Positions 31,638-50,039 of a DNA stretch of 64,000 nucleotides are shown here, in pieces. Location: contig NZ_FNIY01000001.1 in assembly GCF_900104355.1 (NCBI RefSeq), forward strand, positions 558,001 to 622,000. The letters are read 5' to 3'. Each line of letters starts with the position of its first letter. The stretch's first letter is position 1. The notes below the pieces were generated by a model. It made no database searches. It had not been told where the DNA came from and saw nothing but the letters and a program-made list of their open reading frames with translations. The DNA comes from Phyllobacterium sp. OV277 (lineage in GTDB: Bacteria; Pseudomonadota; Alphaproteobacteria; Rhizobiales; Rhizobiaceae). A program made the position numbers and the translations under genes.

Positions 31638-31664
31638 CGTCGTTATATCGACAGGTGCTGTCGC
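31638..31664 (+). promoter_or_regulatory. Putative operator: NGTCGN direct repeat, 21-bp period (importer)
   Basis: Half-sites CGTCGT (31638) and TGTCGC (31659) are 21 bp apart start to start, 150 bp before the substrate-binding protein gene. The second half-site also lies in an imperfect inverted repeat, TATATCG...CGATATA. Four other promoters in the corrinoid island carry the same arrangement. Confidence 0.6.
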
Positions 31665-31813
31665 GATATACCGCATTAATTGAACGAAACCATTGCATTC
31701 TGACGCGATAAGGATGCCAAATGGCACACAAACGAACAGCTGGGCAAAAGGCAGTGCCAAGTTAGATTCGTACCGGGTGAACGAACTGTCAAAACGAGTG
31801 GGAGACTAAACCT

Positions 31814-32815
31814 ATGAAGAAGCTACTTGCTTCAACTTTATTGGCCGCAGGGTTTTTCGGCTTTGCCGGAGCCGCTTCGGCAGCAGAATGTGGTTCCGTT
31901 ACCATCGCAAATATGAACTGGCCGTCTGCTGAAGCCTTGGCCAATCTGGACAAGCTTGTGCTCACCGAGGGCTATGGCTGCGATGCGGAACTGGTCGCTG
32001 GCGACACCGTTCCAACCTTCACATCAATGATCGAAAAGGGACAACCGGATGTCGCGCCGGAAGGCTGGCTCAATTCGGTGCGTGAACCGCTCGAAAAGGC
32101 AGTCAAGGAAAAGAAGCTTGTCTATGCTGCACCTGCCATTACGGAAGGCGGCACGGAAAGCTGGTGGATACCCAAATATTTCGCCGATGCACATCCTGAC
32201 ATCAAGACAATCGCCGATGCCATGAAGCATCCGGAGCTTTTCCCCTCACCTGAAGATCCGAAGAAGGGTGCGGTTTACAACTGTCCGTCAGGCTGGGCCT
32301 GCCAGATCACAACAACGAATTTTTACAAGGCCTATGAAGGCGACAAACACGGCTTCACCCTTGTTGACACGGGTTCCGCGGCTGGCCTCGACGGCTCGAT
32401 TGCGAAAGCTTACGAGCGCAAGGAGCCATGGCTCGGTTATTACTGGGGTCCAACAGCCATTCTCGGCAAATATCCCATGGTTAAACTCGACAATGGCGTG
32501 CCATTTGATGAAAAGGAATGGCAGCGCTGCACCACCATCGCCGATTGTCCTGATCCAAAGCCGAATGGCTGGGCAAAATCCGACATCTACACGATCGTCA
32601 CCACGAAATTTTCTGACAGGGCTGGACCCGCGTTCGACTATTTGAAGAAGCGTCAGCTCTCCACGGTCGAGTTCAACGCGCTTCTCGCCTGGATGGTCGA
32701 CAATCAGGCCACCGGTGAAGATGGTGCAAAATATTACCTGAAGAACAACGAAGCCACCTGGTCAAAATGGGTTTCTCCGGAAGCCGCTGCAAAGATCAAG
32801 GCAGCCGTTCAATAA
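31814..32815 (+). CDS. Betaine-type ABC importer, substrate-binding protein (OpuAC/ProX family)
   Basis: This 333-residue periplasmic protein has a Sec signal peptide (residues 1-23, ending ASAAE). The OpuAC domain covers the rest. Aromatic residues that form the quaternary-ammonium cage in this family would include those in NMNWPS, ESWWIP and GYYWGPTAI. Two Cys pairs (CPSGWAC and CTTIADC) probably form disulfides. GGGAG precedes the ATG. Glycine betaine or a related betaine is the likely ligand, given the methyl-transfer island downstream, but proline betaine, carnitine or choline cannot be excluded. Confidence 0.9.
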   Translation: MKKLLASTLLAAGFFGFAGAASAAECGSVTIANMNWPSAEALANLDKLVLTEGYGCDAELVAGDTVPTFTSMIEKGQPDVAPEGWLNSVREPLEKAVKEKKLVYAAPAITEGGTESWWIPKYFADAHPDIKTIADAMKHPELFPSPEDPKKGAVYNCPSGWACQITTTNFYKAYEGDKHGFTLVDTGSAAGLDGSIAKAYERKEPWLGYYWGPTAILGKYPMVKLDNGVPFDEKEWQRCTTIADCPDPKPNGWAKSDIYTIVTTKFSDRAGPAFDYLKKRQLSTVEFNALLAWMVDNQATGEDGAKYYLKNNEATWSKWVSPEAAAKIKAAVQ

Positions 32816-32826
32816 CCGACTGAATT

Positions 32827-32855
32827 GATGCGGCGAAGACCCTCTTCGCCGCATC
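32827..32855 (+). promoter_or_regulatory. Intra-operon stem-loop
   Basis: A perfect 13-bp stem GATGCGGCGAAGA / TCTTCGCCGCATC with a 3-base loop lies 12 bp after the binding-protein stop. No T-run follows, so it is more likely an mRNA-stabilising or attenuating element that raises binding-protein levels over permease than a full terminator. Confidence 0.7.
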
Positions 32856-32936
32856 GCACCATCCCGAATGGGCCGAGCGTTATCGCGTTCGGTCGCGATG
32901 GTCATTTCTTGACCCACAAAGAAGGGGGCGCAACAT

Positions 32937-33824
32937 ATGGATTGGTTCTATTCATTCCCGAAAATGAATGACGAGACACTCCGCAATTTGAAAAAAGCCA
33001 TGGATGAAGGCTTCAAGGCTTTCACCCGCAGCTATGGCGATGTGATCGAGTCATTTTTCCAGCCGCTGCAATATTTTCTCATCCAGGCCGAAAAGTTCAT
33101 GACATCGACACCGTGGCCAATCATGGTCCTGCTGATCGCCGGTATTGCCTGGATCGCCAGCCGCAACTGGAAGATCGTTGCCGGAACGGTCATCACTCTC
33201 CTCCTCATCGGCTATTTCGATATGTGGAGCGATGCGATGAAAACCATCGCGATGATTTTCGTCGGCACTGTCGTGTCCATCGTCGTCGGCATCCCCATCG
33301 GCATCGTCATGGCCCGCTCCGATACATTCCAGCGCGTCGTCAATCCCATTCTTGACGTCATGCAGACCATGCCAAGCTTCGTCTATCTCATCCCCGTGGT
33401 CATGCTTCTCGGCATCGGCAAGGTTCCGGGCCTCATCGCCGTGGTGATCTACGCCATTCCGCCGATGATCCGCCTGACCAATCTCGGCATCCGGCTTGTT
33501 GACAAGGATGTGCTTGAAGCGGCTGACGCCTTTGGCTCCTCCAGCTGGCAGCGCCTCAAGAATGTGCAGATACCGCTCGCCCTTCCCACCATCATGGCCG
33601 GTATCAACCAGACCATCATGATGGCGCTTGCCATGGTGGTTATCGCTTCGATGATCGGTGTACAGGGTCTCGGCCAGCCGGTTCTGCGGTCGGTCAACGG
33701 CCAGTTCTTCTCACTCGGACTTTTCAACGGTCTTGCCATTGTCGGCATTGCCATCATTTTTGACCGCGTCAGCCAGGCCTATGGCATGCGCCTTCAAAAG
33801 CACCAGGAGGTGGTTCATGGCTGA
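32937..33824 (+). CDS. Betaine-type ABC importer, permease (OpuAB/ProW family)
   Basis: This 295-residue inner-membrane protein has about six or seven membrane segments. The ProW-family core includes PIGIVMARSDTFQRVVNPILDVMQTMPSFVYLIP-type sequence around residues 120-155 and an EAA-like coupling loop with VLEAADAFGSSSWQRLK near residue 190. AAGGGGG precedes the ATG. Its last codons overlap the ATPase gene by 8 bp, so the two are coupled. Confidence 0.92.
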   Translation: MDWFYSFPKMNDETLRNLKKAMDEGFKAFTRSYGDVIESFFQPLQYFLIQAEKFMTSTPWPIMVLLIAGIAWIASRNWKIVAGTVITLLLIGYFDMWSDAMKTIAMIFVGTVVSIVVGIPIGIVMARSDTFQRVVNPILDVMQTMPSFVYLIPVVMLLGIGKVPGLIAVVIYAIPPMIRLTNLGIRLVDKDVLEAADAFGSSSWQRLKNVQIPLALPTIMAGINQTIMMALAMVVIASMIGVQGLGQPVLRSVNGQFFSLGLFNGLAIVGIAIIFDRVSQAYGMRLQKHQEVVHG

Positions 33825-34887
33825 TCGTTCCGTTCAGGGCGCCGGTATCCAGATCAAGAATCTCTACAAGATTTTTGGCCAGAAACCTGCGAACTATGTC
33901 GATGCCGTCAAGAAGGGCATGACCAAGACCGAGCTCAATGAAAAGTACAACCATGTGCTCGGCCTGCGCGATATCAATATCGATATGCCCGCCGGTTGCA
34001 TTCAGGTTGTCATGGGCTTGTCAGGTTCCGGTAAATCGACACTGATTCGCCATATCAACCGGCTGATTGATCCGACTGCCGGCGAAGTCATCATCGACAA
34101 GTCAGATGTTTGCAAGATGAACCAGAACGATCTGCGCGAGTTCCGCCGCCACAAGACGGCGATGGTTTTCCAGAAGTTCGCACTGCTTCCGCATCGCACG
34201 GTGCTCGACAACACGGTCTATGGCCTTGAAATTCAGGGCCTGAGCCGGGCAAAGCAGGAAGAACAGGCCCGCCGCTGGATTGAACGCGTTGGCCTGAAAG
34301 GCTTTGAGGACAATTATCCCAACCAGCTTTCCGGCGGCATGCAGCAGCGCGTGGGTCTTGCCCGTGCGCTCACCAATGACGCGCCGATCCTGTTGATGGA
34401 CGAAGCCTTCTCGGCGCTTGATCCGCTGATCCGCATGGACATGCAGTCTGTGCTTCTGGATTTGCAGAAGGAAATCAAGAAAACCGTTGTCTTCATCACC
34501 CACGATCTTGATGAGGCGCTGCGTCTGGGCGACCGCATTGCAATCTTGCGCGATGGCGAGGTGGTTCAGCAGGGAACCGGACAGGATATCGTGCTGAAAC
34601 CTGCGGACGAGTATATTTCCAGCTTCGTCAAGGAAGTGAACCGCGGCCGGGTGATCATGGTGGATACCATTTCCACCAAAGGAGATGGTGCTGGCAATGC
34701 GGGTGGCGTGACGGTGAAAACCGGCACAATCCTCGAGGAAGCCGCCAAAACCATGACCGACGCCAACCAGCAGCATGCAACGGTTGTCGATGAAAGTGGT
34801 AAGCCGCTGGGTGTCATCAGTATGAACAATCTGATTCAGGCCATGGTTACGCCAATCAGCCATCTGACCCATCAGGCTGCTGAGTAG
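33817..34887 (+). CDS. Betaine-type ABC importer, ATPase (OpuAA/ProV family)
   Basis: This 356-residue ATPase powers betaine uptake. The N-terminal part contains the ProV-specific IKNLYKIFG, followed by Walker A GLSGSGKS near residue 68, signature LSGGMQQRVGLA and Walker B ILLMDEAFSALDP. A single CBS-like segment occupies residues about 295-350, which in OpuA relatives senses ionic strength. Start ATG 33817 follows AGGAGG. Confidence 0.93.
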   Translation: MADRSVQGAGIQIKNLYKIFGQKPANYVDAVKKGMTKTELNEKYNHVLGLRDINIDMPAGCIQVVMGLSGSGKSTLIRHINRLIDPTAGEVIIDKSDVCKMNQNDLREFRRHKTAMVFQKFALLPHRTVLDNTVYGLEIQGLSRAKQEEQARRWIERVGLKGFEDNYPNQLSGGMQQRVGLARALTNDAPILLMDEAFSALDPLIRMDMQSVLLDLQKEIKKTVVFITHDLDEALRLGDRIAILRDGEVVQQGTGQDIVLKPADEYISSFVKEVNRGRVIMVDTISTKGDGAGNAGGVTVKTGTILEEAAKTMTDANQQHATVVDESGKPLGVISMNNLIQAMVTPISHLTHQAAE

Positions 34888-34950
34888 CAGCGCTTTATCT
34901 CCGCTTTGTGGGAGAGACTCGCCGTGCTGATACTTCTGTGCTGGGAGGTG

Positions 34951-35119
34951 GCATTCACCCCCCTCTGCCTTGTCAGGCATCTCCCCCACAAGGGGGGAGA
35001 TCACATTGACATGAACGCTTTCCCACAACAGGAAACGTTTCAAATTGTGCAAAGGCAGTAGTGAGAGCTGATCTCCCCCCTTGTGGGGGCGATGTCCGAC
35101 AGGACAGAGGGGGGTGAAT
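34951..35119. repeat. Palindrome family B copy
   Basis: Complete family-B element, with arms carrying CTGCCTTGTCAGGCATCTCC and GATGTCCGACAGGACAGAGG and an inner AAACGTTTCAAATTGTG segment. The arms have drifted slightly: ACAAGGGGGGAG matches but the TGTCAGGC/GTCCGACA pairs do not all complement. A family-A copy begins 7 bp later. Together they fill most of the 564 bp between the importer and mttB1; the remainder is AT-rich leader with the putative operator at 35359. Confidence 0.88.
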
Positions 35120-35125
35120 GCCACC

Positions 35126-35288
35126 GGTTCGTGGTTCGTGGTTCGACAGGCTCACCATGAGGGACCTGGGTGGACGCAACGCTAATCGCCAACATTGCAC
35201 TTCACACCTCTGCACTTCACACCATTGCAGAACTCACTCCCTGCACCCCACCACTCTCCCTCATGGTGAGCCTGTCGAACCACGCACA
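35126..35288. repeat. Palindrome family A copy (G variant)
   Basis: Arms read TTCGACAGGCTCACCATGAG and CTCATGGTGAGCCTGTCGAA. Relative to other copies, A-to-G in the left arm is matched by T-to-C in the right arm, so pairing is kept. The centre contains repeated CATTGCACTTCACAC words. Confidence 0.9.
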
Positions 35289-35358
35289 ACCTTGGTGCAA
35301 CTCTGTTCAATAAATTCTCCCTCTCAACTCCTTAACACCTGTTTCCCCCTCTCGCCCA

Positions 35359-35385
35359 TGTCGCTTCCCTTGCGGTCAGCGTCGC
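35359..35385 (+). promoter_or_regulatory. Putative operator: NGTCGN direct repeat, 21-bp period (mttB1)
   Basis: Half-sites TGTCGC (35359) and CGTCGC (35380) are 21 bp apart and end 67 bp before the mttB1 start codon. Confidence 0.6.
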
Positions 35386-35451
35386 TCACGCCGCGCACGA
35401 ATTTCCCGTCTGTGGCGATAGTGGCACCATCGCAAGTGAAGGGCATGAGCT

Positions 35452-37032
35452 ATGAGTGAACCGGCAACAGACATCGAAATCCCCGCAACGGCACGCGATC
35501 ATGGCCGGCGTGGCGGACGGTCCCGCCCCCGCAGCATTGAAAGCGGCGCATTCGACCAGCCTCCCTTCCGTCAATTGAAGATTCCGTTCGCGCCCACCAA
35601 GATCATTTCCGATGATGAGCTGGAATCCATCCACAATGCCTCGCTGCGCGTTTTGCAGGAGATTGGCGTCGACGTGCTGCATGATGGCGCGCGGGAGATC
35701 ATGAAACAGGCGGGCGCAGATGTGCGTCCCGGCACCATGCGCGTGCATTTTGATAAGGACATGATCCTTGAATATGTCGGCTACGCGCCGTCGGAATTCA
35801 CCCTGCACGCCCGCAACCCCGCCCACAATGTGCGTTTCGGCGGCAACAACCTAATTTTCGCGCAGATGGGATCGGCGCCCAATTGTTCCGACACGGACAA
35901 TGGCAGACGATCCGGCAATCAGGCGGATTTCCGCAACTTCGTCAAACTGGCGCAGATGCACAACATCATCAACATGACGGGCGGCTATCCCGTTGAACCG
36001 ATCGATATTCATCCATCGGTTCGCCATCTCGAATGCATCCGCGATCTTGCCACTCTCTCCGACAAGGCTTTTCACATTTATTCGCTCGGCAAGGAGCGCA
36101 ATCTGGATGGCATTGAAATCGCCCGCATTGCCCGTGGCATCAGCCAGGAGCAGTTGCAGAACGAAGCCTCCTCCTACACCATCATCAACACCAATTCGCC
36201 CCTGAAGCTCGATGTGCCGATGATGGAAGGCATCATCCATATGTCGGGCAATGGCCAGATTGTTATCGTCACTCCGTTCACGCTGGCAGGAGCCATGGCC
36301 CCCGTCACCATCGCCGGTGCGCTCGTTCAGCAGAATGCCGAAGCGCTTGCCGGTATCTCCTTTACCCAGATGGTGAAGAAGGGTGCGCCTGTCGGTTATG
36401 GCGGCTTCACCTCCAATGTCGATATGAAATCCGGTGCACCTGCTTTCGGCACACCTGAATATATGAAGGCGCAGATGGTCGGCGGCCAGCTCGCCCGCCG
36501 CTATAAGATCCCCTATCGCACCTCCAATGTTTGCGCCGCCAACACGGTCGATGCGCAGGCTGCCTACGAATCCGTCTTCTCGCTCTGGGGTGCAATCCAG
36601 GGCGGCGGCAATTTCATGCTGCATTCCGCCGGTTGGCTGGAAGGTGGCCTGTGCTGTTCCTACGAAAAGATGATCCTCGATTTTGATCTGTTGCAGATGG
36701 TGGCGGAGTTCCTGACGCCGCTCGATCTGTCTGAAGATGCACTCGGCCTCGACGCCATGCGCGACGTTGGTCCCGGTGGCCACTTCTTCGGCACAGCCCA
36801 CACCCAGTCCCGCTACAAGACGGCGTTCTATGCGCCGATCATATCAGACTGGCGCAATTACGAGACATGGCAGGAAGCCGGTTCCCCCACGGCCATTGAT
36901 CGCGCCAATCGCGTCTGGAAGGAGCGGCTTGCCACCTATGAGAAGCCTCCTATCGATCCGGCCATCGAGGAAGAGCTGAACGCCTTCGTGGCCAGACGCA
37001 AGGCCGAGGGCGGCGCGCCGACCGATTTCTGA
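35452..37032 (+). CDS. MttB-family (non-pyrrolysine) corrinoid methyltransferase, copy 1
   Basis: This 526-residue protein belongs to the trimethylamine methyltransferase superfamily (COG5598). The frame has no internal UAG, so unlike methanogen MttB it has no pyrrolysine and resembles the MtgB/MtpB/MtcB group that demethylate glycine betaine, proline betaine or carnitine onto a corrinoid protein. The TIM-barrel region includes LNGDP-free typical stretches such as NTNSPLKLDVPM and MMEGIIHMSG. Residues 15-27 form a basic tail RDHGRRGGRSRPR before the fold. AAGGG precedes the ATG. A dimethylglycine dehydrogenase-like gene follows 62 bp later, which makes glycine betaine the favoured substrate. 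This is inferred, not proven. Confidence 0.88.
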   Translation: MSEPATDIEIPATARDHGRRGGRSRPRSIESGAFDQPPFRQLKIPFAPTKIISDDELESIHNASLRVLQEIGVDVLHDGAREIMKQAGADVRPGTMRVHFDKDMILEYVGYAPSEFTLHARNPAHNVRFGGNNLIFAQMGSAPNCSDTDNGRRSGNQADFRNFVKLAQMHNIINMTGGYPVEPIDIHPSVRHLECIRDLATLSDKAFHIYSLGKERNLDGIEIARIARGISQEQLQNEASSYTIINTNSPLKLDVPMMEGIIHMSGNGQIVIVTPFTLAGAMAPVTIAGALVQQNAEALAGISFTQMVKKGAPVGYGGFTSNVDMKSGAPAFGTPEYMKAQMVGGQLARRYKIPYRTSNVCAANTVDAQAAYESVFSLWGAIQGGGNFMLHSAGWLEGGLCCSYEKMILDFDLLQMVAEFLTPLDLSEDALGLDAMRDVGPGGHFFGTAHTQSRYKTAFYAPIISDWRNYETWQEAGSPTAIDRANRVWKERLATYEKPPIDPAIEEELNAFVARRKAEGGAPTDF

Positions 37033-37094
37033 CGGCCCTTTGAATCAAACTCTCAACGCATTGAATCATATTCCTATACAAGAGGCATAAGTGA

Positions 37095-39671
37095 ATGAAA
37101 TCGCACGTTAAAGCAGTTGTCATTGGCGGCGGCGTAGTTGGATGTTCGGTCCTTTACCATCTCGCCCGCGCCGGCTGGACGGATGTTCTGCTGATCGAAC
37201 GCTCGGAGCTGACATCGGGGTCATCCTGGCATGCGGCTGGCGGTTTTCACACGCTGAACGGCGATCCGAACGTCGCCAAGCTGCAGGCCTATACGGTCAG
37301 CCTCTACAAGGAAATCGAAGAACTCTCTGGCCAGTCCTGCAGCCTGCATCTGACCGGCGGCGTGATGATGGCCGACTCGCCCGAACGCATGGATTTCCTG
37401 CGCCTCGCCCATGCACGCGGCCGCTATCTCGGTATGGACACCGAGCTAATCACCCCGTCGGAAGCCAAGGCCATGTTCCCGCTGATGGACGAAACCAACT
37501 TCGTCGGCGCCATGTGGGACCCGGTTGAAGGGCACCTTGATCCATCCGGCACCACCCATGCCTATGCCAAGGCCGCGCGCAAGCTTGGTGCTGAAATCAG
37601 CCTGCGCAACCGCGTTGTTGAACTGACGCAGGAAGTGGACGGCACCTGGAATGTCGTCACCGAACAGGGAACGGTAAAGGCCGAACACGTCGTCAATTGC
37701 GGCGGCCTCTGGGCCCGCGAAGTCGGCCGCATGGTTGGCCTCGAATTACCAGTGCTTGCCATGGAGCATATGTATCTTCTGACTGAAGATGTGCCCGAAG
37801 TCATGGAATTCAACCAGTCAACAGGCCGCGAACTCATCGGCGTCATGGATTTCAAGGGCGAGATTTATACCCGTCAGGAGCGCAATGGCATTCTGCTCGG
37901 CACCTATGAAAAGGCCGCCAAGCCGTGGTCGCCGGTTAATACCCCATGGGATTTCGGCCATGAACTTCTGGCACCGGATATTGATCGCATCGCCCCTTCC
38001 CTCGAAGTCGGCTTCAAGCATTTCCCCGGCATCGAAAAGGCCGGCATCAAGCAGATCATCAATGGACCGTTCACCTTCGCGCCGGATGGTAATCCGCTCG
38101 TCGGCCCTGTTCCGGGCCTGACCAATTACTGGACCGCCTGCGCCGTCATGGCCGGGTTCAGTCAGGGCGGCGGCGTCGGGCTCGCCCTTTCCAACTGGAT
38201 GGTGCATGGCGAACCCGGCTTTGACGTCTGGGGCATGGATGTGGCGCGGTTCGGCGAATGGGCAACCCTGCGCTATACCAATGCCAAAGTACGCGAAAAC
38301 TATTCGCGCCGCTTCTCCATCCGCTTCCCCAATGAAGAACTGCCCGCCGCACGGCCGCAGCAGACAACGCCGCTCTATGACACCATGGTTAGCCAGAACG
38401 CCGTCATGGGCGATTCCTGGGGACTGGAAACACCGCTCTGGTTTGCGCCAAAGGGCACAGAAGCCAAAGATATCGTTTCATATCACCGCTCCAACGATTT
38501 CGAGCATATCGGCAATGAAGTCCGCGCCACGCGTGAGCGGGTCGGCGTGACCGAAATCGCCAACTTCGCCAAATACGAAGTCACCGGCAGCGGCGCGGAA
38601 GCATTTCTTTCCTATCTCATGACCAACACCATGCCGAAGACAGGCCGTCTGGTGCTGACACCCATGCTGAATGAAAAAGGCAAGCTGATCGGCGATTTCA
38701 CCATCGCCAAAGCAGCCGAGGATCGCTTCCTCATCTGGGGTTCGTCCGCCGCCCAGCGCTATCACATGCGCTGGTTCCAAAAACATCAGCCAAAAGACGG
38801 TTCGGTGCATATCCACCGCTTCGACCAGACGCTGGTTGGCCTTTCCATCGCCGGGCCGAAATCCCGCGATCTTCTGGCCAAACTTGTCGATGAAGATGTG
38901 TCGAACACTGCCTTCCGGTTCATGGATTTCCGCGAAATGGCCGTTGGCGGCGCACCGTGCAAGGTCAACCGCATTTCCTATACGGGCGATCTCGGTTACG
39001 AAATCTGGATGGAACCGGCCTATCAGCGCCTTGTCTACAAGGCCATCAAGGAGGCGGGCAAGGAATTCGACATTGTCGATTTCGGCATGCGCGCTTTGCT
39101 ATCCATGCGGCTGGAAAAGAATTTCCCCACATGGTTCCGCGAATTGCGCCCGATCTATGGGCCCTATGAAGGCTCGATGGATCGTTTCATCAAGCTCACC
39201 AAGAATGATTTTATCGGCCGCGAACCCGCAGCGCAGGAAAAAGCCGAATTTGACGCCGGAATCAGCAAAAAACTGCGCCGCGTATCGCTGATCATCGATG
39301 TGCCCGATGGTGATGGTGCTGCCGATGTCATGGGCGATGAGCCAATTTGGGCCAAGGTTACCAAGGATTATGGTGTCGTGGAAGCCGGCCACGGCGTTGG
39401 CGCCCCGCGCTTCGACCACACCGGTGCCGCTGTTTCCTTTGATGGCGACAAGGGTGCTGTTCAGGGCGATTGGCGCGTTGTCGGCTGGGTGACATCGGGC
39501 GGTTACGCCCATTATGTCGGGCATTCCATGGCACAGGGCTATGTGCCTGCCGAGTTGGCTGAAAACGAGAGTGCTGGTCTATTCGAGGTGGAAATCCTCG
39601 GCCTCCGCCGCGCTGCCCGCATCAATATCGAGCCACCATTCGATCCATCCGGGGCAAAAATGCGCGGGTGA
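37095..39671 (+). CDS. Dimethylglycine dehydrogenase-like FAD/THF oxidoreductase
   Basis: This 858-residue flavoprotein has an N-terminal DAO-type FAD domain (VIGGGVVGCSVLYHLARAG, residues 8-26) and a C-terminal GcvT-type folate domain (about residues 430-850, with GDLGYEIWM). The segment SGSSWHAAGGF near residue 42 contains the His to which FAD is attached covalently in DMGDH and sarcosine dehydrogenase. It would oxidatively demethylate dimethylglycine (or sarcosine) and hand the one-carbon unit to tetrahydrofolate. AGAGG precedes the ATG. Being in an operon with mttB1, it most likely consumes the product of that enzyme. Confidence 0.88.
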   Translation: MKSHVKAVVIGGGVVGCSVLYHLARAGWTDVLLIERSELTSGSSWHAAGGFHTLNGDPNVAKLQAYTVSLYKEIEELSGQSCSLHLTGGVMMADSPERMDFLRLAHARGRYLGMDTELITPSEAKAMFPLMDETNFVGAMWDPVEGHLDPSGTTHAYAKAARKLGAEISLRNRVVELTQEVDGTWNVVTEQGTVKAEHVVNCGGLWAREVGRMVGLELPVLAMEHMYLLTEDVPEVMEFNQSTGRELIGVMDFKGEIYTRQERNGILLGTYEKAAKPWSPVNTPWDFGHELLAPDIDRIAPSLEVGFKHFPGIEKAGIKQIINGPFTFAPDGNPLVGPVPGLTNYWTACAVMAGFSQGGGVGLALSNWMVHGEPGFDVWGMDVARFGEWATLRYTNAKVRENYSRRFSIRFPNEELPAARPQQTTPLYDTMVSQNAVMGDSWGLETPLWFAPKGTEAKDIVSYHRSNDFEHIGNEVRATRERVGVTEIANFAKYEVTGSGAEAFLSYLMTNTMPKTGRLVLTPMLNEKGKLIGDFTIAKAAEDRFLIWGSSAAQRYHMRWFQKHQPKDGSVHIHRFDQTLVGLSIAGPKSRDLLAKLVDEDVSNTAFRFMDFREMAVGGAPCKVNRISYTGDLGYEIWMEPAYQRLVYKAIKEAGKEFDIVDFGMRALLSMRLEKNFPTWFRELRPIYGPYEGSMDRFIKLTKNDFIGREPAAQEKAEFDAGISKKLRRVSLIIDVPDGDGAADVMGDEPIWAKVTKDYGVVEAGHGVGAPRFDHTGAAVSFDGDKGAVQGDWRVVGWVTSGGYAHYVGHSMAQGYVPAELAENESAGLFEVEILGLRRAARINIEPPFDPSGAKMRG

Positions 39672-40715: not shown

Positions 40716-40724
40716 ACGGGTAGT

Positions 40725-41874: not shown

Positions 41875-42711
41875 ATGGACAAACGGGATCTCTCGCGCCT
41901 GTTTCAGGACCGCATCCGGAGCCTGCTTGCCCGCAGCGGCGATAATCAATCGTCGTTTGCTTCAGCCGTCGGCATAGACCGTTCAGCACTCTCGCAACTT
42001 CTCTCCGGCCAGTCGACGCGCCTGCCCCGCGTTGAGACACTGCTCAACATTGCCGAGCGCTATGCAGTATCTCTCGATTGGCTGCTTGGTCTCAGTCAGG
42101 ATGAGGCGATCACCGGCGAACTGCGCGCCAGTATGGAGATTGAGGAAGGCCATGACGGTTTCGAGCGCACGCTGCTGGTGCGCTGGCATGCGGAGGCGAC
42201 AGGCAGCAAGATCCGCTATGTACCGGCGCGTATTCCCGACCTGCTGCGCACACAGGCGGTGATTGCCTACGAGACTTCGCTTGTACACCGCGATCCCACG
42301 ACCCAGATCACTGAAACTGCGTTCCGGCTTGATTACAATCGCCAGCCGGGCACGGACATGGAAGTATGCATGCCCTACCAGACCCTGCGCGATTTCGCTG
42401 GTGGCGGCGGCATCTGGGGCGACCTTTCGCGCGCGGTACGCGTTGAACAGCTTCAGCATATGACGGCCCTGCTTGATGAGCTTTATCCGTCCTTCCGGCT
42501 GTTTCTGTTTGACGGGCGCGAGCGGTTCTCGGTGCCCTACACCGTGTTCGGCCCCTACCGCGCTGCGATCTTTGTCGGCGAGATGTATCTGGTGCTCAAC
42601 ACAACGGATGCCGTGCAAACCCTGCAACGGCATTTCGATGGTCTGATCCGCGTGGCAAAGATCAATGCCCACGAGGTTGGTGCTTATATTTCGTCATTGA
42701 AGGTCGATTGA
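41875..42711 (+). CDS. XRE-family transcriptional regulator with C-terminal ligand-type domain
   Basis: This 278-residue protein has a Cro/C1-type helix-turn-helix at about residues 25-65 (SSFASAVGIDRSALSQLLSG) and a large C-terminal domain of unknown function. I chose ATG 41875 with AAAGG 7 bp upstream; an ATG two codons earlier is also possible. It is divergent from the desaturase-family gene and likely regulates it. The half-site GGTCGA of the bmt operator lies within its last codons. Confidence 0.85.
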   Translation: MDKRDLSRLFQDRIRSLLARSGDNQSSFASAVGIDRSALSQLLSGQSTRLPRVETLLNIAERYAVSLDWLLGLSQDEAITGELRASMEIEEGHDGFERTLLVRWHAEATGSKIRYVPARIPDLLRTQAVIAYETSLVHRDPTTQITETAFRLDYNRQPGTDMEVCMPYQTLRDFAGGGGIWGDLSRAVRVEQLQHMTALLDELYPSFRLFLFDGRERFSVPYTVFGPYRAAIFVGEMYLVLNTTDAVQTLQRHFDGLIRVAKINAHEVGAYISSLKVD

Positions 42712-42728
42712 GTGCTAGAGCTTGTCGC
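42702..42728 (+). promoter_or_regulatory. Putative operator: NGTCGN direct repeat, 21-bp period (bmt)
   Basis: Half-sites GGTCGA (42702) and TGTCGC (42723) are 21 bp apart and end 72 bp before bmt. The first half-site overlaps the 3' end of the XRE gene. Confidence 0.6.
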
Positions 42729-42799
42729 AAATGAATATTGACCACATATAAAGACTTCCTTATATCGTTATCTAAGTCTCATCACAGGAACTGCGCGCC

Positions 42800-43813
42800 A
42801 TGACCATTGCCAATCCGCTTGCCGATCTTCTCGCTGAAAAGGGCGTTCTGCTGGCCGATGGTGCGACGGGCACGAACCTGTTTGCCACGGGTCTGGAAGC
42901 CGGTGAAGCACCCGAACTCTGGAACGAAGCCCAGCCGGAAAAAATCCTCGCGCTGCATCAAGGCTTTGTCGATGCCGGTGCTGATATCATCCTGACCAAT
43001 TCCTTCGGCGGCACACGCCATCGCCTCAAGCTACACCATGCGCAAGACCGCGTGTTCGAGCTCAACAAGAAGGCCGCTGAACTTGCCCGCGCTGTCGCCG
43101 ATAAGGCAGACCGCAAGGTGATTGTGGCTGGCTCTGTCGGTCCGACGGGCGAACTGCTGGTTCCACTTGGTGCGCTAACCGAAGAGGACGCTGTCGCTGC
43201 GTTTACCGAACAGCTTGAGGGTCTGAAGGCTGGCGGTGTTGATGTCGCATGGATCGAAACCATGTCGGCTCCGGGTGAAATTCGCGCTGCAGCAGAAGCT
43301 GCCGTGAAGGTCGGCCTGCCTTATGTCTACACAGGCTCGTTCGATACGGCTGGCAAAACCATGATGGGCCTGCCACCAAAAGAGATTCACGGCGTTGTCG
43401 ATGGGCTGGCCCAACGCCCGGTTGCTGTCGGTGCCAATTGCGGTGTCGGCGCGTCGGATATTCTGGCCTCCCTGCTCGACATGTCCGAAGCTGATCCCAC
43501 AGCCACCATTGTCATCAAAGGCAATTGCGGCATTCCGGAATTTCGCGGCGCGGAGATTTTTTACTCCGGCACGCCCGAATTGATGGCAAATTATGCGCAT
43601 CTCGCCATTAATGGCGGTGCAAAAATCATTGGCGGCTGCTGCGGCACCTCGTTTGAACATCTGGCCGCGATGCGCCACGCGCTGGATAACCATATCCATA
43701 GCACGCGCCCGACGGTGGAAACCATTGTTGAGGCGATCGGACCAATGCGCAACAAGCTCGCTGCCCATGCGGATGACCTGCCGAAGCGCGAACGTCGCGG
43801 ACGTCGCGGTTGA
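42800..43813 (+). CDS. bmt: Betaine-homocysteine S-methyltransferase family protein Bmt
   Basis: This 337-residue zinc-dependent methyltransferase transfers a methyl group to homocysteine (COG2040/0646). The (beta/alpha)8 barrel has zinc Cys residues in GANCGVG near residue 212 and GGCCGTS near residue 277. The N-terminal LLADGATGTNL is typical. The usual methyl donor is glycine betaine. The last nine residues KRERRGRRG form a basic tail not needed for the fold; four other proteins of the island have similar tails. AGGA precedes the ATG. A putative regulator site lies 72 bp upstream. Confidence 0.9.
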   Translation: MTIANPLADLLAEKGVLLADGATGTNLFATGLEAGEAPELWNEAQPEKILALHQGFVDAGADIILTNSFGGTRHRLKLHHAQDRVFELNKKAAELARAVADKADRKVIVAGSVGPTGELLVPLGALTEEDAVAAFTEQLEGLKAGGVDVAWIETMSAPGEIRAAAEAAVKVGLPYVYTGSFDTAGKTMMGLPPKEIHGVVDGLAQRPVAVGANCGVGASDILASLLDMSEADPTATIVIKGNCGIPEFRGAEIFYSGTPELMANYAHLAINGGAKIIGGCCGTSFEHLAAMRHALDNHIHSTRPTVETIVEAIGPMRNKLAAHADDLPKRERRGRRG

Positions 43814-44916: not shown

Positions 44917-46521
44917 TCAGGTGAATGCGTCGGGCATCGACGCTTTTTTCTTGGCAATGAATTCCTTGAGGGATTCGTCAATGGCCGGATCAAGATAGGG
45001 TGCTTCGTAGGTTTCAAGCCAGCGTCGTGCCAGTTCATTGCCGCGCTGGTCGGCACGTTTCTCGCCCTCGGCAAGCCACTGCTCATAGGAATTGTTGTCG
45101 GCAATGTTCGAGCGGTAGAAGGCCGTCTGGAAGTTTGCCTGTGTGTGGTCGCAGCCAAGATAATGGCTGCCGGGCCCAACCTGACGGATCGCATCCATCG
45201 CCTGACCATTCTCGGAAAGGTCAACGCCTTCAGCAAATTTCTGCGCCATACCAAGCTGGTCGATGTCCATCATGAACTTTTCATAGGAGGACACAAGACC
45301 ACCTTCGAGCCAGCCGGCGGAATGCAGCACGAAGTTCGTACCAGCCAGAAGCGTCGAATTCAGCGTATTGGCGCTCTCATAGGCCGCCTGCGCGTCGGAA
45401 ACTTTTGAAGCGCAGAGCGAACCGCCGGTGCGGAACGGCAGTCCAAGACGGCGTGCCAGCGCCGCAGCGCCGTAAGATACAAGCGACGGCTCAGGTGTTC
45501 CGAAAGTCGGCGCACCCGACTGCATCGAGATGGACGAGGCAAATGTGCCGAAAATAACCGGAGCACCCGGTCGGATCAGCTGGGTGAGCGCTGCACCGGC
45601 CAGCACTTCCGCCAGAACCTGCGTCAACGTACCGGCCACCGTCACAGGGCTCATCGCACCGGCAAGAATGAACGGCGTGACAATGCAGGCCTGATTGTTG
45701 CGGGCATAGACCTTGAGCGCACCAACCATCGTCTCGTCGAAAACCATCGGCGAGTTTGCATTGATCAGGCTGGTCAAAACCGTGTTCTGGTCGAGATAAT
45801 CCTCACCGAAAACCAGCTTACACATGGATATCGTGTCTTCCGCCCGCTCAGGCGCGGTGACAGACCCCATGAACGGCTTGTCGGAATATTTGATATGGGC
45901 ATAGACCATATCGAGGTGGCGCTTGTTGACGGGAACGTCGACAGGCTCGCACACCGTGCCGCCGGAATGGTGGATTGACGGTGCCATATAGGCGAGCTTC
46001 ACGAAATTATTGAAGTCTTCAATGGTCGCATAGCGGCGATTGCCATCAAGATCGCGCACAAAGGGCGGGCCGTAGACCGGCGCAAACACCGTGGCCTTGC
46101 CACCGATCTGCACGGAACGCTCTGGGTTGCGCGCATGCTGTGTGTAGATGGACGGTGCCGTCTTCAGCAGTGAGCGGGGAAGCCCCTTTGGAAAGTGTAC
46201 CCGCTCGCCTTTGACATCGGCCCCAGCTTCGCGCCAAAGCTGCAAAGCTTCCGCATCGTCGCGGAACTCGATGCCGATTTCCTCAAGGACGGTATCCGCA
46301 TTGGCTTCGATCAGCGCCAGCCCTTCCTCATCAAGCACTTCATATTCGCGAATCTTGCGCGTGATATAGGTGAGCGACTTGCCGGGGCCACCGCCGGAAC
46401 GGGCGGCACGGCGCGCAGCAGCGCCCGCACCGGCACCACGTCCGCGACGTCCGCCGCTTTCAGCAGTATCAGCGGGGGTCGCAGTGTCCACCGGTGCATC
46501 AACTGGCGTTTCCTGATTCAT
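44917..46521 (-). CDS. MttB-family (non-pyrrolysine) corrinoid methyltransferase, copy 2
   Basis: This 534-residue paralogue of the protein at 35452 shares the MttB barrel, with NANSPMVFDETMVGALKVYA and LHSAGWLEGGLVSSYEKF in corresponding places. The frame has no internal UAG. The N-terminus is a disordered Thr/Pro/Asp segment followed by a basic Arg/Gly/Ala stretch at residues 25-41 (RRGRGAGAGAAARRAAR). GGAG precedes the ATG. It is divergent from the corrinoid protein gene mtbC, sharing a 237-bp control region. Different substrate preference from copy 1 is likely but cannot be read here. Confidence 0.88.
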   Translation of the reverse strand: MNQETPVDAPVDTATPADTAESGGRRGRGAGAGAAARRAARSGGGPGKSLTYITRKIREYEVLDEEGLALIEANADTVLEEIGIEFRDDAEALQLWREAGADVKGERVHFPKGLPRSLLKTAPSIYTQHARNPERSVQIGGKATVFAPVYGPPFVRDLDGNRRYATIEDFNNFVKLAYMAPSIHHSGGTVCEPVDVPVNKRHLDMVYAHIKYSDKPFMGSVTAPERAEDTISMCKLVFGEDYLDQNTVLTSLINANSPMVFDETMVGALKVYARNNQACIVTPFILAGAMSPVTVAGTLTQVLAEVLAGAALTQLIRPGAPVIFGTFASSISMQSGAPTFGTPEPSLVSYGAAALARRLGLPFRTGGSLCASKVSDAQAAYESANTLNSTLLAGTNFVLHSAGWLEGGLVSSYEKFMMDIDQLGMAQKFAEGVDLSENGQAMDAIRQVGPGSHYLGCDHTQANFQTAFYRSNIADNNSYEQWLAEGEKRADQRGNELARRWLETYEAPYLDPAIDESLKEFIAKKKASMPDAFT

Positions 46522-46636
46522 TTTATTTCTCCAGGCGCTTGATGCGCGGATTGGTTTAACGATCCGATCCTACCTGCGACATGGACAGGCGCGTTTCCGT
46601 GTGCGTCAAACGATGGCGCATGGAAGACAAACAGGT

Positions 46637-46663
46637 GGTCGCTTTCGTCATTTACGAGGTCGC
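46637..46663 (+). promoter_or_regulatory. Putative operator: NGTCGN direct repeat, 21-bp period (mttB2/mtbC)
   Basis: Two identical half-sites GGTCGC (46637 and 46658), 21 bp apart, lie 96 bp before mtbC and about 115 bp before mttB2 in the shared divergent region. The same region holds TGCGACATGG at 46575, also found 33 bp before the AraC-type regulator. Confidence 0.6.
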
Positions 46664-46758
46664 ATTTAAGCAATGCGTTTTCAGCAACTTGCCCGATATG
46701 TTAAGGGAATGCCAGTAGAGATAAAAAGCGCTGCATAACGCTTGAGAGGAAGACACCC

Positions 46759-47457
46759 ATGGCCGACGATGAAATCATTCTTTCGGAGCTTTCGGACGAC
46801 GAACTCGTCGAACAAATGCACGACGATCTCTACGACGGATTGAAGGAAGAGATCGAGGAAGGCACCAATATCCTTCTGGAGCGCGGCTGGGTGCCTTACC
46901 GGGTTTTGACCGAAGCACTCGTCGAAGGCATGCGCATTGTCGGCGAAGATTTCCGTGACGGCATTCTCTTCGTGCCGGAAGTTCTGCTGTCAGCCAATGC
47001 CATGAAAGCCGGCATGTTCATCCTGCGCCCGCTTCTCGCAGCCACGGGCGCGCCGAAACAGGGCAAGCTCGTTATCGGCACCGTCAAGGGCGACATTCAC
47101 GACATCGGCAAGAATCTGGTCGGCATGATGATGGAAGGCGCTGGCTTTGACGTCATTGATCTCGGCATCAACAATCCGGTCGAAAATTATCTGGCAGCCA
47201 TCGAAGAGCACAAGCCTGACATTCTCGGCATGTCGGCCCTGCTCACCACGACCATGCCTTACATGAAAGTCGTCATCGATACGATGAAGGAAAAGGGCAT
47301 TCGCGACGATTACGTGGTGCTCGTCGGCGGTGCGCCGTTGAACGAAGAATTCGGCAAGGCCGTCGGTGCTGATGCCTATTGCCGCGATGCGGCGGTGGCC
47401 GTTGAAACAGCCAAGGACTATATGAAGCGCAAGCACAACCAGATGTCCGGCGCCTGA
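46759..47457 (+). CDS. mtbC: Corrinoid (B12-binding) methyl-carrier protein, MtbC/MttC type
   Basis: This 232-residue methyl carrier holds a corrinoid cofactor between methyltransferases. The B12-binding motif DIHDIGKNLV (residues about 113-122) includes the lower-axial His of the DxHxxG motif, followed by the usual GxxVIDLG and SALLTTTMP loops. The N-terminal helical cap domain (about residues 10-95) is present. The first 36 residues are strongly acidic, with 15 Asp/Glu and a single Lys. GAGAGGAAG precedes the ATG. It is the only free-standing corrinoid protein in the window and so should serve both MttB copies. Confidence 0.93.
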   Translation: MADDEIILSELSDDELVEQMHDDLYDGLKEEIEEGTNILLERGWVPYRVLTEALVEGMRIVGEDFRDGILFVPEVLLSANAMKAGMFILRPLLAATGAPKQGKLVIGTVKGDIHDIGKNLVGMMMEGAGFDVIDLGINNPVENYLAAIEEHKPDILGMSALLTTTMPYMKVVIDTMKEKGIRDDYVVLVGGAPLNEEFGKAVGADAYCRDAAVAVETAKDYMKRKHNQMSGA

Positions 47458-47465
47458 ACCAAATC

Positions 47466-47496
47466 AAAACGGCCGCATCAAAATGCGGCCGTTTTT
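47466..47496. terminator. Bidirectional rho-independent terminator
   Basis: Stem AAAACGGCCGCAT / ATGCGGCCGTTTT with a short loop and flanking A- and T-runs, just after mtbC and before the convergent entericidin gene. Confidence 0.88.
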
Positions 47497-47542
47497 CGAA
47501 TCTAGTGTAACTTTGCTGAAACTGGCCTATGAGGCCGAATAA

Positions 47543-47698
47543 TCAGTTGGCGGCTTTTGCTACCCGATGACCAGCGGACTGGGTCGCATTCACCGTGTTG
47601 GCTGTATCGGAGCCGATACCGCGGATTGTGTTGGCGCAGCCGGCCAGTGCTACGACAGCAAGAACAGCGGCGATCGGTACAACGCGTGATAGTTTCAT
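47543..47698 (-). CDS. Entericidin EcnA/B-family small lipoprotein
   Basis: This 51-residue protein starts MKLSRVVPIAAVLAVVALAG followed by Cys21 and NTIRGIGSDTANTVNATQS. The lipobox LAGC and the GIGxDT segment are hallmarks of entericidins. GGGAG lies upstream of the ATG. Entericidins are small membrane lipoproteins of uncertain role, often stress-induced. It is convergent with mtbC and shares the terminator. Confidence 0.85.
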   Translation of the reverse strand: MKLSRVVPIAAVLAVVALAGCANTIRGIGSDTANTVNATQSAGHRVAKAAN

Positions 47699-47767
47699 GG
47701 ACAGGGTCTCCCGTTCTGATAGAATTTAATCAACGTTCGCATAACGCGATGGAGCGAAATCAGTTCC

Positions 47768-48400
47768 ATGAATGTTAGCCAGAATTCGAATAATTCGCCA
47801 GAGATCGTCAGGGTGATCGCCTGCGGCATGATTGCCCGGGAAATACTGGCTATACGCGAGCAATTCGGCCTCGATCACATCGAGCTGAAATGTCTGCCCG
47901 CCGTCTATCATCATCATCCGGAAAAGATTGCACCGTCGGTGGATCGGGCAATCGTCAAGGCAAAAGCTCAGGGCATCAAGCGAATCTTCGTCGGCTATGC
48001 CGATTGCGGCACTGGCGGCATGCTTGATCGCGTCTGCGAAAAGCACGGTGTGGCGCGTATTGAGGGTCCGCATTGCTTCTCGTTCTATGTCGGCAATGAT
48101 GCCTTTGCGTCCAAATGGGACGATGACATGACGTCATTCTTCATGACGGACTTTCTCGCCCGGCATTTCGAAGCCTTCATGGTCAAACCGCTTGGCCTCG
48201 ACCGCCACCCTGAGTTGCGTGACATGTATTTCGGCAATTACACCAAGATGATCTACCTCGCTCAGACAGACGACGCCAAGCTCAATGCCAATGCCGAAAA
48301 GGCGGCTGAATTCCTTGGCCTCGCCTATGAGCGGCGCTTTACCGCCTATGGCGATCTGGTTCCTGCCCTGCGGCTGGCAGCAGCAGATAGCGCAGTTTGA
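47768..48400 (+). CDS. DUF1638 domain protein
   Basis: This 210-residue protein matches DUF1638 (VRVIACGMIAREI at the start, VGYADCGTGGMLD and KHGVARIEGPHCF in the middle). Several Cys (residues about 19, 43, 80, 102) and a Tyr/His run (AVYHHHPEKI) could bind metal. The family is frequent next to corrinoid methyltransferase genes in methanogens and other bacteria, but its function is not established. It sits in the methyl-transfer island, downstream of mtbC. Confidence 0.82.
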   Translation: MNVSQNSNNSPEIVRVIACGMIAREILAIREQFGLDHIELKCLPAVYHHHPEKIAPSVDRAIVKAKAQGIKRIFVGYADCGTGGMLDRVCEKHGVARIEGPHCFSFYVGNDAFASKWDDDMTSFFMTDFLARHFEAFMVKPLGLDRHPELRDMYFGNYTKMIYLAQTDDAKLNANAEKAAEFLGLAYERRFTAYGDLVPALRLAAADSAV

Positions 48401-48474
48401 CACTTTCCTTTACGCCTTTAAATCGGCATGGTCCGCCTGCTTCCTGATGGAATCGAAAACAAAGGACCGTTCTC

Positions 48475-49059
48475 ATGCTGTTTCGAACCCTTCTTCTCGC
48501 AACGATCAGTCTGGCAACCATCAGCGCCGCCCATGCGGATGGCGCGATTACAAAGATCATCACGCCCGCCGATACCAAACGGCTAGAGCAGTACGATCAA
48601 ACAAAGACCAAGGCGGTTGCAGATGCGAAAGCGACCGGTAGCGCCGCTGATATCCGCATTGTTGATGAATTGTTAAAGCGCCCCAGCCTGCCTTTCAGTG
48701 AAGGTTTTGACATGACCGGCAACTGGCAGTGCCGGACAATCAAGCTCGGCGGCATGGCCCCGGCGCTCGTGGTCTATGGCTGGTTCAAATGCAAGGTCAC
48801 GGATGATGGCTCCGGCTGGGCTTTGGAAAAAGTGACGGGATCACAACGCACCAAAGGGCGTTTCTACACCGAAAGCGACAAGCGGCTGACCTATCTCGGC
48901 ACCGGCTATGTTTCGGATCAAAAGCCTGCGAAATATGGTGCAGGACCGAAAACCGACGAAGCTGGCTATGCCTATCGCACCGGCAAGAATGCCTTCCGCA
49001 TCGAGTTTCCGGCACCCTATTACGAATCCCTGCTCAACATCATGGAATTCAAACGTTAA
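48475..49059 (+). CDS. DUF4893 secreted protein
   Basis: This 194-residue protein has a signal peptide (residues 1-21, ending AHA) and a DUF4893-type body containing NWQCRTIKLGGMAPALVVYGWFKCKV, with two Cys. Function unknown; no sign it belongs to the methyl-transfer pathway. AAAGGA precedes the ATG. Confidence 0.82.
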   Translation: MLFRTLLLATISLATISAAHADGAITKIITPADTKRLEQYDQTKTKAVADAKATGSAADIRIVDELLKRPSLPFSEGFDMTGNWQCRTIKLGGMAPALVVYGWFKCKVTDDGSGWALEKVTGSQRTKGRFYTESDKRLTYLGTGYVSDQKPAKYGAGPKTDEAGYAYRTGKNAFRIEFPAPYYESLLNIMEFKR

Positions 49060-49138
49060 GTACTTTCGTCGCTGCCGCGTCATTGCAATGTCACCTTTGC
49101 CCCTCCATATGGGCAAAGGTTGAACAAAAGACGGACCC

Positions 49139-49804
49139 ATGGTTGCAATAGATAGTGAAAATCAGAAGAAGATGGACAGTGCTTCGACACATGCGGAAAA
49201 CGATCCGCGGCCCCTTTCACAGGTTTTCGAAGACCTTGCACGGACAACCACCGCACCCGTTTCTTTCACCGAACTTGAAGATGCCTTCACTGATCGCAGC
49301 TTCGCAGCCCTTTTGACATTTTTCGCCATTCTCAACCTGCTTCCGCTGCCACCGGGAACCGGTATTGTCACCGGCATTCCGCTTGTTCTTGTATCGGTGC
49401 AGATGGTCATGGGCCGCGAATCCGTCTGGCTACCGACCTTCATGCGCACAAAAACCATTGCGCCGGAACGTTTTCGTCAGGTCTCGAACAAGGTTGTTCC
49501 GTGGCTGCAATGGCTGGAACGCTTCATCCGCCCGCGCAACTGGCCCTTTTCCCAGCGTCAGGGCGATCGCTGGCTCGGCGCATTTACGACAGTTCTGGGC
49601 ATGTCCGTCGTCCTGCCCATGCCGCTTTCAAACTGGCTTCCGGCCTTGGCAACGGCCATTATCGGCATTGCACTGTGTGAACGCGATGGCCGTTTGATGC
49701 TCGGTGGCCTCATTCTGGGCGTGGTCTCGATCAGCATCGTCTTCGGCTTCGCCTTCATCGCCGCCAACGTGCTGGCCTATCTGGCAGGTTTCTGGCCTTT
49801 TTGA
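49139..49804 (+). CDS. exoD: ExoD-family exopolysaccharide-related membrane protein
   Basis: This 221-residue protein fits ExoD: PRPLSQVFEDLA near the start, then NLLPLPPGTGIVTGIPLVLVS and WLPALATAIIGIALCERDG. About four membrane segments are present. ExoD is needed for exopolysaccharide production and alkaline tolerance in rhizobia, mechanism unclear. It has no evident tie to its neighbours. Confidence 0.85.
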   Translation: MVAIDSENQKKMDSASTHAENDPRPLSQVFEDLARTTTAPVSFTELEDAFTDRSFAALLTFFAILNLLPLPPGTGIVTGIPLVLVSVQMVMGRESVWLPTFMRTKTIAPERFRQVSNKVVPWLQWLERFIRPRNWPFSQRQGDRWLGAFTTVLGMSVVLPMPLSNWLPALATAIIGIALCERDGRLMLGGLILGVVSISIVFGFAFIAANVLAYLAGFWPF

Positions 49805-49825
49805 GATTGGGCAGAGCCGTGATGT

Positions 49826-49969
49826 TGGTTCGTGGTTCGACAAGCTCACCATGAGGGATAGAGGTGATGTAAAGATAATCGCCAGCTTTGCAGATCACCA
49901 ACGTTGCAGAACTTGACTCCCTTTCATCACCCTTCTCCCTCATGGTGAGCTTGTCGAACCACGAACCAA
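49826..49969. repeat. Palindrome family A copy
   Basis: Arms TTCGACAAGCTCACCATGAG and CTCATGGTGAGCTTGTCGAA, with about 80 bp between them that include GTTGCAGAACTTGACTCC. It lies between exoD and the operator of the next operon. Confidence 0.9.
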
Positions 49970-50012
49970 CCACCCCCACTAAAATCTCTGTCGCAAAAAC
50001 AACAATGTCGCA

Positions 50013-50039
50013 CGTCGCATTTGAGTGGGCGCACGTCGT
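50013..50039 (+). promoter_or_regulatory. Putative operator: NGTCGN direct repeat, 21-bp period (PF13769-metF-mtvA)
   Basis: Half-sites CGTCGC (50013) and CGTCGT (50034) are 21 bp apart; a longer 9-bp word CGCACGTCG is repeated with the same spacing. Extra TGTCGC words start at 49989 and 50006. The site ends 62 bp before the first gene. Confidence 0.65.

Follow-up and report, generated by a model that had tools for sequence, protein, structure and literature searches.

In Pseudomonas aeruginosa, carnitine catabolism is governed by the AraC-family protein CdhR, whose footprint at caiX-cdhR, GGTCGC-N15-GGTCGC, is a direct tandem repeat located upstream of the promoter; full induction depends on the second G and the T of its half-site, and the site has been likened by its authors to those of GbdR, SouR, and ArgR (PMC5806209). 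GbdR of P. aeruginosa, a betaine-responsive activator of the AraC family, uses a site similar to those described below (PMC5806209). The ARG box of Pseudomonas ArgR, which controls the arginine regulon, consists of TGTCGC-N6-GNAA elements in tandem with 5 bp between them, which makes a period of 21 bp, and its spacing is reported to be rather variable in P. putida (PMC10963909). The present analysis deals with paired NGTCGN half-sites of this kind ahead of genes for betaine uptake and corrinoid-dependent betaine demethylation in Phyllobacterium sp. OV277, and with the GbdR-like regulator gene found at position 58072 of the same DNA stretch. This stretch of 64,000 nucleotides (contig NZ_FNIY01000001.1, positions 558,001 to 622,000) is called the window, and coordinates refer to it unless a contig is named.

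The enzymes of betaine catabolism differ between these bacteria. Pseudomonas takes off the first methyl group with the monooxygenase encoded by gbcAB, unlike the corrinoid methyltransferase of the window, and a paper of 2025 described a cobalamin-dependent enzyme for betaine demethylation in aerobic bacteria (PMC12478193). The MtgBCDE system of Ruegeria pomeroyi involves the same kinds of genes as the window (MtgB, MtgC, MtgD, MtgE, MetF2, RamA, and DUF1638), and on betaine and related compounds all of these proteins except MtgE increase (PMC12478193). By family, the window set appears to be complete, with predicted MTTB, corrinoid, pterin-binding, Bmt-type, MetF2, RamA, and DUF1638 proteins; the window proteins score below the cut-offs of the curated NCBIfam models of MtgC and trimethylamine MttB. 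A word search of PMC12478193, together with the first part of its Results, yielded no regulator or operator for Mtg, and the terms GTCG and MtgC did not appear in a word search of a 2026 paper on regulators of trimethylamine catabolism in marine bacteria, among them the AraC-type TmaR (PMC13390433). Among open-licence papers, neither a regulator of Mtg nor a link between the operator and Mtg was found. Given the published CdhR site and its stated likeness to those of GbdR, SouR, and ArgR, the kind of operator is known, and the site at 46637 is an exact example of it (PMC5806209). The Mtg system being known as well, what appears to be new is the target of the operator, namely the regulon of the cobalamin-dependent betaine demethylase.

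The reading favored here, with a probability of roughly 0.85, is that the pairs are tandem operators of an activator of the GbdR/CdhR/ArgR type, most likely the 58072 protein, by which the betaine pathway would be induced as a set.

Putative Tandem Operators and Their Placement

The five NGTCGN pairs listed in a first-pass annotation of the window are all present, on the + strand and with exactly 21 bp from start to start, and the control region at 27713-27830 contains a single GTCG without a partner. Genes and start codons are predictions; on recounting, the pairs end 61 to 149 bp before the start codon (71 bp for bmt; Table 1), close to the 62 to 150 bp given previously. As in the CdhR/GbdR/ArgR type, the half-sites are direct repeats with a period of 21, and the first and last bases of the half-site vary. 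The annotation had also named TGTCGC as the half-site of Pseudomonas ArgR, correctly so (PMC10963909), and had invoked an AraC-type architecture of tandem half-sites, in line with the CdhR and ArgR sites (PMC5806209, PMC10963909).

The pair alone is common, and it is its placement that is unusual. Counting both strands, the window contains eight GTCG pairs, while its dinucleotide shuffles average 2.45 and reach eight in 1 of 100 cases. Over the 5.33 Mb of the genome there are 353, an average of about 4.2 for every 64 kb. Since coding DNA is rich in GTCG pairs, their raw enrichment, whether in the window or in the genome, is weak and indecisive. The three remaining pairs of the window, at 33261 (+), 55428 (+), and 55834 (-), fall within coding sequence, in roughly the number that chance would produce.

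Restriction to upstream regions gives another result. An 862-kb piece (C15:1-862000), made by joining the window and 40 further stretches, was used for this count, with genes called by a simple hexamer model and up to 400 bp taken per gene where at least 30 bp of free space was available (579 regions, 121.6 kb). Forward 21-bp pairs occur in six of these regions, those of the importer, mttB1, mtbC, PF13769, an MFS gene, and a gene resembling dimethylglycine (DMG) dehydrogenase located past the end of the window. Four of the six had been proposed beforehand, for which reason the hypergeometric P of ~1e-5 (4 of 6 in 18 of 579) is descriptive only. The bmt pair falls outside this count, since its first 10 bp overlap the preceding open reading frame (ORF). 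When periods from 8 to 38 were scanned in the same regions, 21 was the most frequent, with 6 occurrences, and the next reached 4. The stricter pattern GTCGY-N16-GTCGY has 45 matches in the genome, 8 of them in the 862-kb piece, where 5 are betaine/corrinoid promoters. The 37 matches elsewhere are intragenic (31), intergenic (4), or partly in a gene (2). A single one of them (L157) is correctly oriented and no more than 300 bp ahead of a gene: it is 183 bp 5' of a phosphatidylserine decarboxylase gene and overlaps the end of the preceding gene; another (L172) overlaps a predicted gene start.

The sites can also be predicted from other genera. A weight matrix was built from 52 thinned sites out of 99 found at mtgC (the mtbC of the window) and PF13769 of other genera, Phyllobacterium being excluded, and the 862 kb were scanned with it at periods 21 and 22. 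PF13769 and mtgC ranked 1 and 2, followed by mttB1 (4), the DMG-dehydrogenase-like gene (9), the importer (29), and bmt (32), the last four families having had no part in the training. Eight of the top 40 hits are intergenic, of which six are at most 300 bp ahead of a gene, all of them in betaine/corrinoid promoters.

A coincidence of spacing among common GTCG pairs is therefore very improbable, even though the genome-wide number is high and three of the eight window pairs are in coding DNA: the promoter-restricted counts, the period scan, and the matrix trained on other genera argue to the contrary, as does the strand-specific conservation reported below (a forward pair in 94 of the 107 mtgC promoters, an opposite-strand pair in 0 of 107). 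In our view chance is ruled out for mtgC, PF13769, mttB1, the DMG-dehydrogenase-like gene and, within the genus, the importer, while it is possible for the bmt pair.

Conservation and Spacing of the Putative Operators

Orthologous promoters were tallied with one row per genome, provided that at least 200 bp of promoter was available; 260 bp were inspected for a forward pair with a period of 21 or 22 bp. Left out were shorter promoters (e.g., PF13769 of three congeners, at the end of a stretch), mtgC matches below 74% identity, other genes below identity cuts of 45-65%, additional gene copies of the same genome, and loci carrying no genome label. The counts ignore relatedness, the opposite strand and the other periods serving as internal controls. 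The mtgC pair was found in 20/20 Phyllobacterium genomes (including that of the window), in 53/55 other genomes of the family and 6/7 of the order, and in 15/25 from other orders. For PF13769 the figures are 7/7 in the genus, 26/27 in the family, and 3/3 in the order. The mttB1 pair is present in 10/10 other Phyllobacterium and 2/2 other genomes of the family and missing from the one genome of the order (0/1); an mttB1-like gene of genome G052 (55% identity, below the identity cut) is likewise without it. All nine other Phyllobacterium genomes with promoter sequence have the importer pair. Ahead of the DMG-dehydrogenase-like gene, it occurs in 10/10 other Phyllobacterium, in 3/4 genomes of the family and, outside the tally, in 4/5 named loci.

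Between genera the spacers have diverged and the half-sites have been kept, as would be expected under selection. The consensus of 71 thinned sites is GTCG(C/T)TTT(C), then GTCG(C/T), followed weakly by AA; A is favored at position +14 of the second half-site, a feature reminiscent of the ARG box. A period of exactly 21, as initially claimed, holds for Phyllobacterium, and its relatives have 21 or 22: among 108 unique mtgC promoters, the period is 21 in 81 and 22 in 16 (some have both), and other periods occur at most five times. From G022, G032, and G033 it seemed that all operators had shifted together from 21 to 22 in some lineages, a reading rejected because G258, G328, G267, G031, G208, and G308 mix both. 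The mixture indicates tolerance rather than a coordinated shift, and the regulator seems to accept both spacings. In the pSymB sequence of Sinorhizobium meliloti as deposited, the period is 22 bp at mtgC and PF13769 and 21 bp at the regulator gene. On plasmid IV of Paracoccus aminovorans, a 21-bp pair precedes the metF operon, and the mtgC promoter has none. The betaproteobacterium Azoarcus sp. KH32C has 21-bp pairs on plasmid pAZKH, at mtgC and separately at the divergent purU; the two operators share a single intergenic region (L403 12775-14651).

Another explanation for the distribution among other orders, that the operator is absent where mtgC must serve methionine synthesis for lack of MetH, was rejected as well. 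Of 36 genomes examined, the 25 from other orders were used, and MetH was found in 5/15 with the operator and 4/10 without it.

The Candidate Regulator

The product of the 58072 gene combines an N-terminal DJ-1/PfpI domain (PF01965, residues 32-183) with a C-terminal AraC-type helix-turn-helix (HTH) domain (PF12833, residues 246-324). GbdR is its closest curated family, and it is 100% identical to a regulator of Phyllobacterium myrsinacearum DSM 5892. In 20/20 Phyllobacterium genomes the regulator gene is located ~11 kb from mtgC on one contig, with betaine catabolism genes as neighbors, and a GbdR-like gene is found within ~16 kb of mtgC in the S. meliloti, P. aminovorans, and Azoarcus sp. KH32C records.

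Co-occurrence across orders points in the same direction. In a search of 142 genomes, mtgC was found in 26, the window's own and 25 from other orders. With presence taken as E <= 1e-40, a threshold that does not separate orthologues from paralogues, the regulator is present in 21 of these 25 genomes and in none of 10 taken from the 116 without mtgC. All 15 operator-positive genomes of other orders have it, the 4 that lack it also lack the operator, and 6 have the regulator only (Fisher P 0.017, a value that ignores relatedness). In 6 of the 21 genomes the regulator gene is less than 10 kb from mtgC, and the operator is present in four of them (G059, G092, G115, and G144). All 15 aligned regulators that are linked or orthologous retain the HTH motifs R(Q/H)xERLF and HFxKC(Y/F)R. 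On the basis of synteny, cross-order co-occurrence, the HTH motifs, and the published sites of the subfamily, the 58072 gene most likely encodes the regulator, in agreement with what the first-pass annotation had proposed, and it is the best candidate.

Two GbdR-like paralogues are encoded elsewhere in the genome. One (G000:C10:59971-61008; GbdR model 334 bits) is found beside sarcosine oxidase and folD genes, the other (G000:C5:43186-44145; 202 bits) beside BKACE and carnitine dehydrogenase genes; by their neighbors only, they may recall SouR and CdhR of Pseudomonas, respectively. In a tree of 51 regulators, most distant matches are closer to the window protein than to the other paralogues; support is lacking for several deep branches, and the sarcosine-linked paralogue is placed among the distant matches.

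The main rival to the 58072 protein is a different DJ-1-AraC paralogue, for instance one of these two, or several that compete for the sites. The Pseudomonas regulators of which these two may be counterparts are reported to use similar sites: CdhR and GbdR have an overlapping site in common, and the cbcXWV promoter is bound in vitro by CdhR although CdhR does not regulate it (PMC5806209). Both paralogues are present in the genome, and that of C10 retains the first HTH motif. However, both are encoded away from the cluster, in contrast to the 58072 type, which accompanies mtgC throughout Phyllobacterium and in the named Sinorhizobium, Paracoccus, and Azoarcus records. The second HTH motif is altered in both paralogues (SYFAQSYR and AAFARTFR), and in the carnitine-linked one the first is altered as well. 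Moreover, the stretches examined show no exact pair ahead of soxB or ahead of the carnitine operon. Binding by a paralogue is thus considered unlikely.

Along with the neglect of relatedness and the limit of the threshold noted above, several observations weigh against control of the whole set by the 58072 protein. Its score of 366 bits with the equivalog model GbdR (NF052371) is under the cut-off of 480; the S. meliloti, P. aminovorans, and Azoarcus proteins score 354, 350, and 429, respectively. No forward pair was found in the regulator's own promoter, in the window or in 10 congeners. Among 121 unique regulator promoters, 7 do have a 21-bp pair, including those of S. meliloti (L401 33365) and G030 (L187 2558), hinting at autoregulation in some genera. 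The importer pair was found in 0/3 other genera of the family, and that of the DMG-dehydrogenase-like gene is missing in G218 and at one named locus, L243. No 21- or 22-bp pair pointing at mttB2 or the RACo gene was found, and the operator at 46637..46663 is oriented away from mttB2. In other orders, PF13769 lacks the pair in 11/11 genomes, where it is less than 1.5 kb from mtgC and probably in the same operon, and no exact pair was found in 10 of the 25 mtgC promoters; a GbdR-like gene is present in six of these ten genomes, in two of them (G099 and G137) less than 10 kb from mtgC. The second mtgC copy of G180 (L236), outside the tally, has a reverse pair. Lastly, matrix hits 19, 23, and 40 are intragenic yet at most 300 bp ahead of another gene.

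The bmt Promoter

Both half-sites of the bmt pair are present in only 1/10 congeners (G019) and the proximal one in 9/10, neither being found in G011 (by eye). The promoter also contains a repeat, ATATAAAG..CTTATAT, which occurs in 10/10 congeners and in 8/10 other relatives with promoter sequence and is absent from G047 and G052 (by eye). In S. meliloti, ATAAAGATATCTTTAT is found 52 bp upstream of bmt, and an ArsR-type gene is part of the same cluster. In proteobacteria, the binding site of SahR is a palindrome of 20 bp, of which alphaproteobacteria have a variant (PMC4239095), and judging from the sequence alone the bmt repeat may well be a SahR-type site. Such a site would fit the behavior of MtgE, whose abundance in R. 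pomeroyi does not rise but drops slightly on betaine and related compounds (PMC12478193). Hence it is likely that bmt belongs to the regulon of a SahR-type methionine-cycle regulator and that its GTCG pair is either a relic or coincidental. On the other hand, the full pair occurs with different spacers in the window genome and in G019, the proximal half-site is widely kept among congeners, and the matrix score of the pair is similar to that of the importer site. Altogether, a methionine-cycle regulator is probably the main driver of bmt, whose membership in the betaine regulon is weak at most.

The single regulon of five promoters originally proposed is thereby modified: the importer, mttB1, mtbC, and PF13769-metF-mtvA remain in it, bmt is doubtful, and a sixth target, the DMG-dehydrogenase-like gene, is added from beyond the window. 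The gene is found 2.1-4.6 kb past the window end and its operator ~4.7 kb past it; the predicted product of 838 residues is a protein of the flavin adenine dinucleotide (FAD)/GcvT type (Pfam DAO, FAO_M, and GCV_T). The increase of all Mtg-related proteins except MtgE in R. pomeroyi fits the window promoters that have a solid operator (PMC12478193).

Proposed Mechanism

From the sites, their positions and concentration on one gene set, their conservation, their co-occurrence with the regulator, and its linkage, the following course of events can be inferred. The activator would join a DJ-1-like sensor to an AraC DNA-binding domain and would respond to glycine betaine or a close product. As a dimer, it would occupy two direct GTCG(C/T) half-sites, two helical turns apart and upstream of the promoter, and would recruit RNA polymerase. 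Uptake would be switched on through the ABC importer; MtgB and MtgC, with the DUF1638 protein, would transfer the betaine methyl group to the corrinoid protein, and PF13769-MetF2-MtgD-RamA would pass it to folate for oxidation. The DMG-dehydrogenase-like genes behind mttB1 and just past the window would carry out the next step, on dimethylglycine.

There is a good probability that a GbdR-like protein with a GTCGY-N16/17-GTCGY operator governs betaine demethylation across alphaproteobacteria and in at least one betaproteobacterium, despite an enzyme chemistry unlike that of Pseudomonas (corrinoid transfer versus oxygenase). If so, the regulatory module would outlive the replacement of the enzymes, and sequence alone would suffice to recognize members of the Mtg regulon, through their operator, in bacteria of the soil, in symbionts, and perhaps in marine species. 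The operator would name the regulator, predict the gene set, and set the betaine branch apart from the methionine one (bmt/MtgE).

Features of the Locus

The features are collected in Table 1. PF13769, metF2, mtvA, and the RACo gene form a probable operon.

Table 1. Predicted operators and genes of the betaine/corrinoid locus.
Feature	Position	Strand	Remarks
Importer operator CGTCGT-N15-TGTCGC	31638..31664	+	149 bp 5' of start codon 31814
ABC importer, glycine betaine type (OpuAC-like binding protein, permease, ATPase)	31814..34887	+	Pfam OpuAC 212 bits, ABC_tran + CBS, BPD_transp_1
mttB1 (mtgB) operator TGTCGC-N15-CGTCGC	35359..35385	+	66 bp 5' of start codon 35452
mttB1 (MtgB type, MTTB family) and DMG/sarcosine-dehydrogenase-like FAD/GcvT oxidoreductase	35452..39671	+	Pfam MTTB 670 bits; DAO + GCV_T
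Candidate bmt operator GGTCGA-N15-TGTCGC, weak/doubtful	42702..42728	+	Overlapped ORF upstream: HTH_3
Imperfect inverted repeat ATATAAAGACTTCCTTATAT, bmt promoter	42746..42765	none	Resembles SahR-type methionine-cycle operator
bmt (betaine-homocysteine methyltransferase; MtgE type)	42800..43813	+	NCBIfam PRK07534 555 bits, cut-off 338
mttB2 (MTTB family)	44917..46521	-	Pfam MTTB 782 bits; divergent from mtbC, common intergenic region
mtbC (mtgC) operator GGTCGC-N15-GGTCGC	46637..46663	+	95 bp 5' of mtbC start codon
mtbC (MtgC-type corrinoid protein) and DUF1638 gene	46759..48400	+	NCBIfam corrin_MtgC_2 216 bits, below cut-off 370; DUF1638
PF13769 operator CGTCGC-N15-CGTCGT	50013..50039	+	61 bp 5' of start codon 50101
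PF13769-metF2-mtvA (MtgD type)-RACo/RamA corrinoid activase	50101..54613	+	Gap of ~265 bp before RACo
GbdR-like regulator (DJ-1/PfpI + AraC-type HTH)	58072..59070	+	Pfam DJ-1_PfpI, HTH_18; NCBIfam GbdR 366 bits
DMG/sarcosine-dehydrogenase-like gene, beyond window end	C15:624062-626578 (window coordinates 66062-68578)	-	Operator CGTCGC-N15-TGTCGC

The PF13769 gene (50101-50403) comes first, before metF2-mtgD-ramA, and its product carries the name "virulence factor" in Pfam as well as in the records of S. meliloti and Azoarcus. An accessory role in corrinoid methyl transfer is more likely for this protein, and the operator could serve as a sequence tag for such uncharacterised parts of the pathway.

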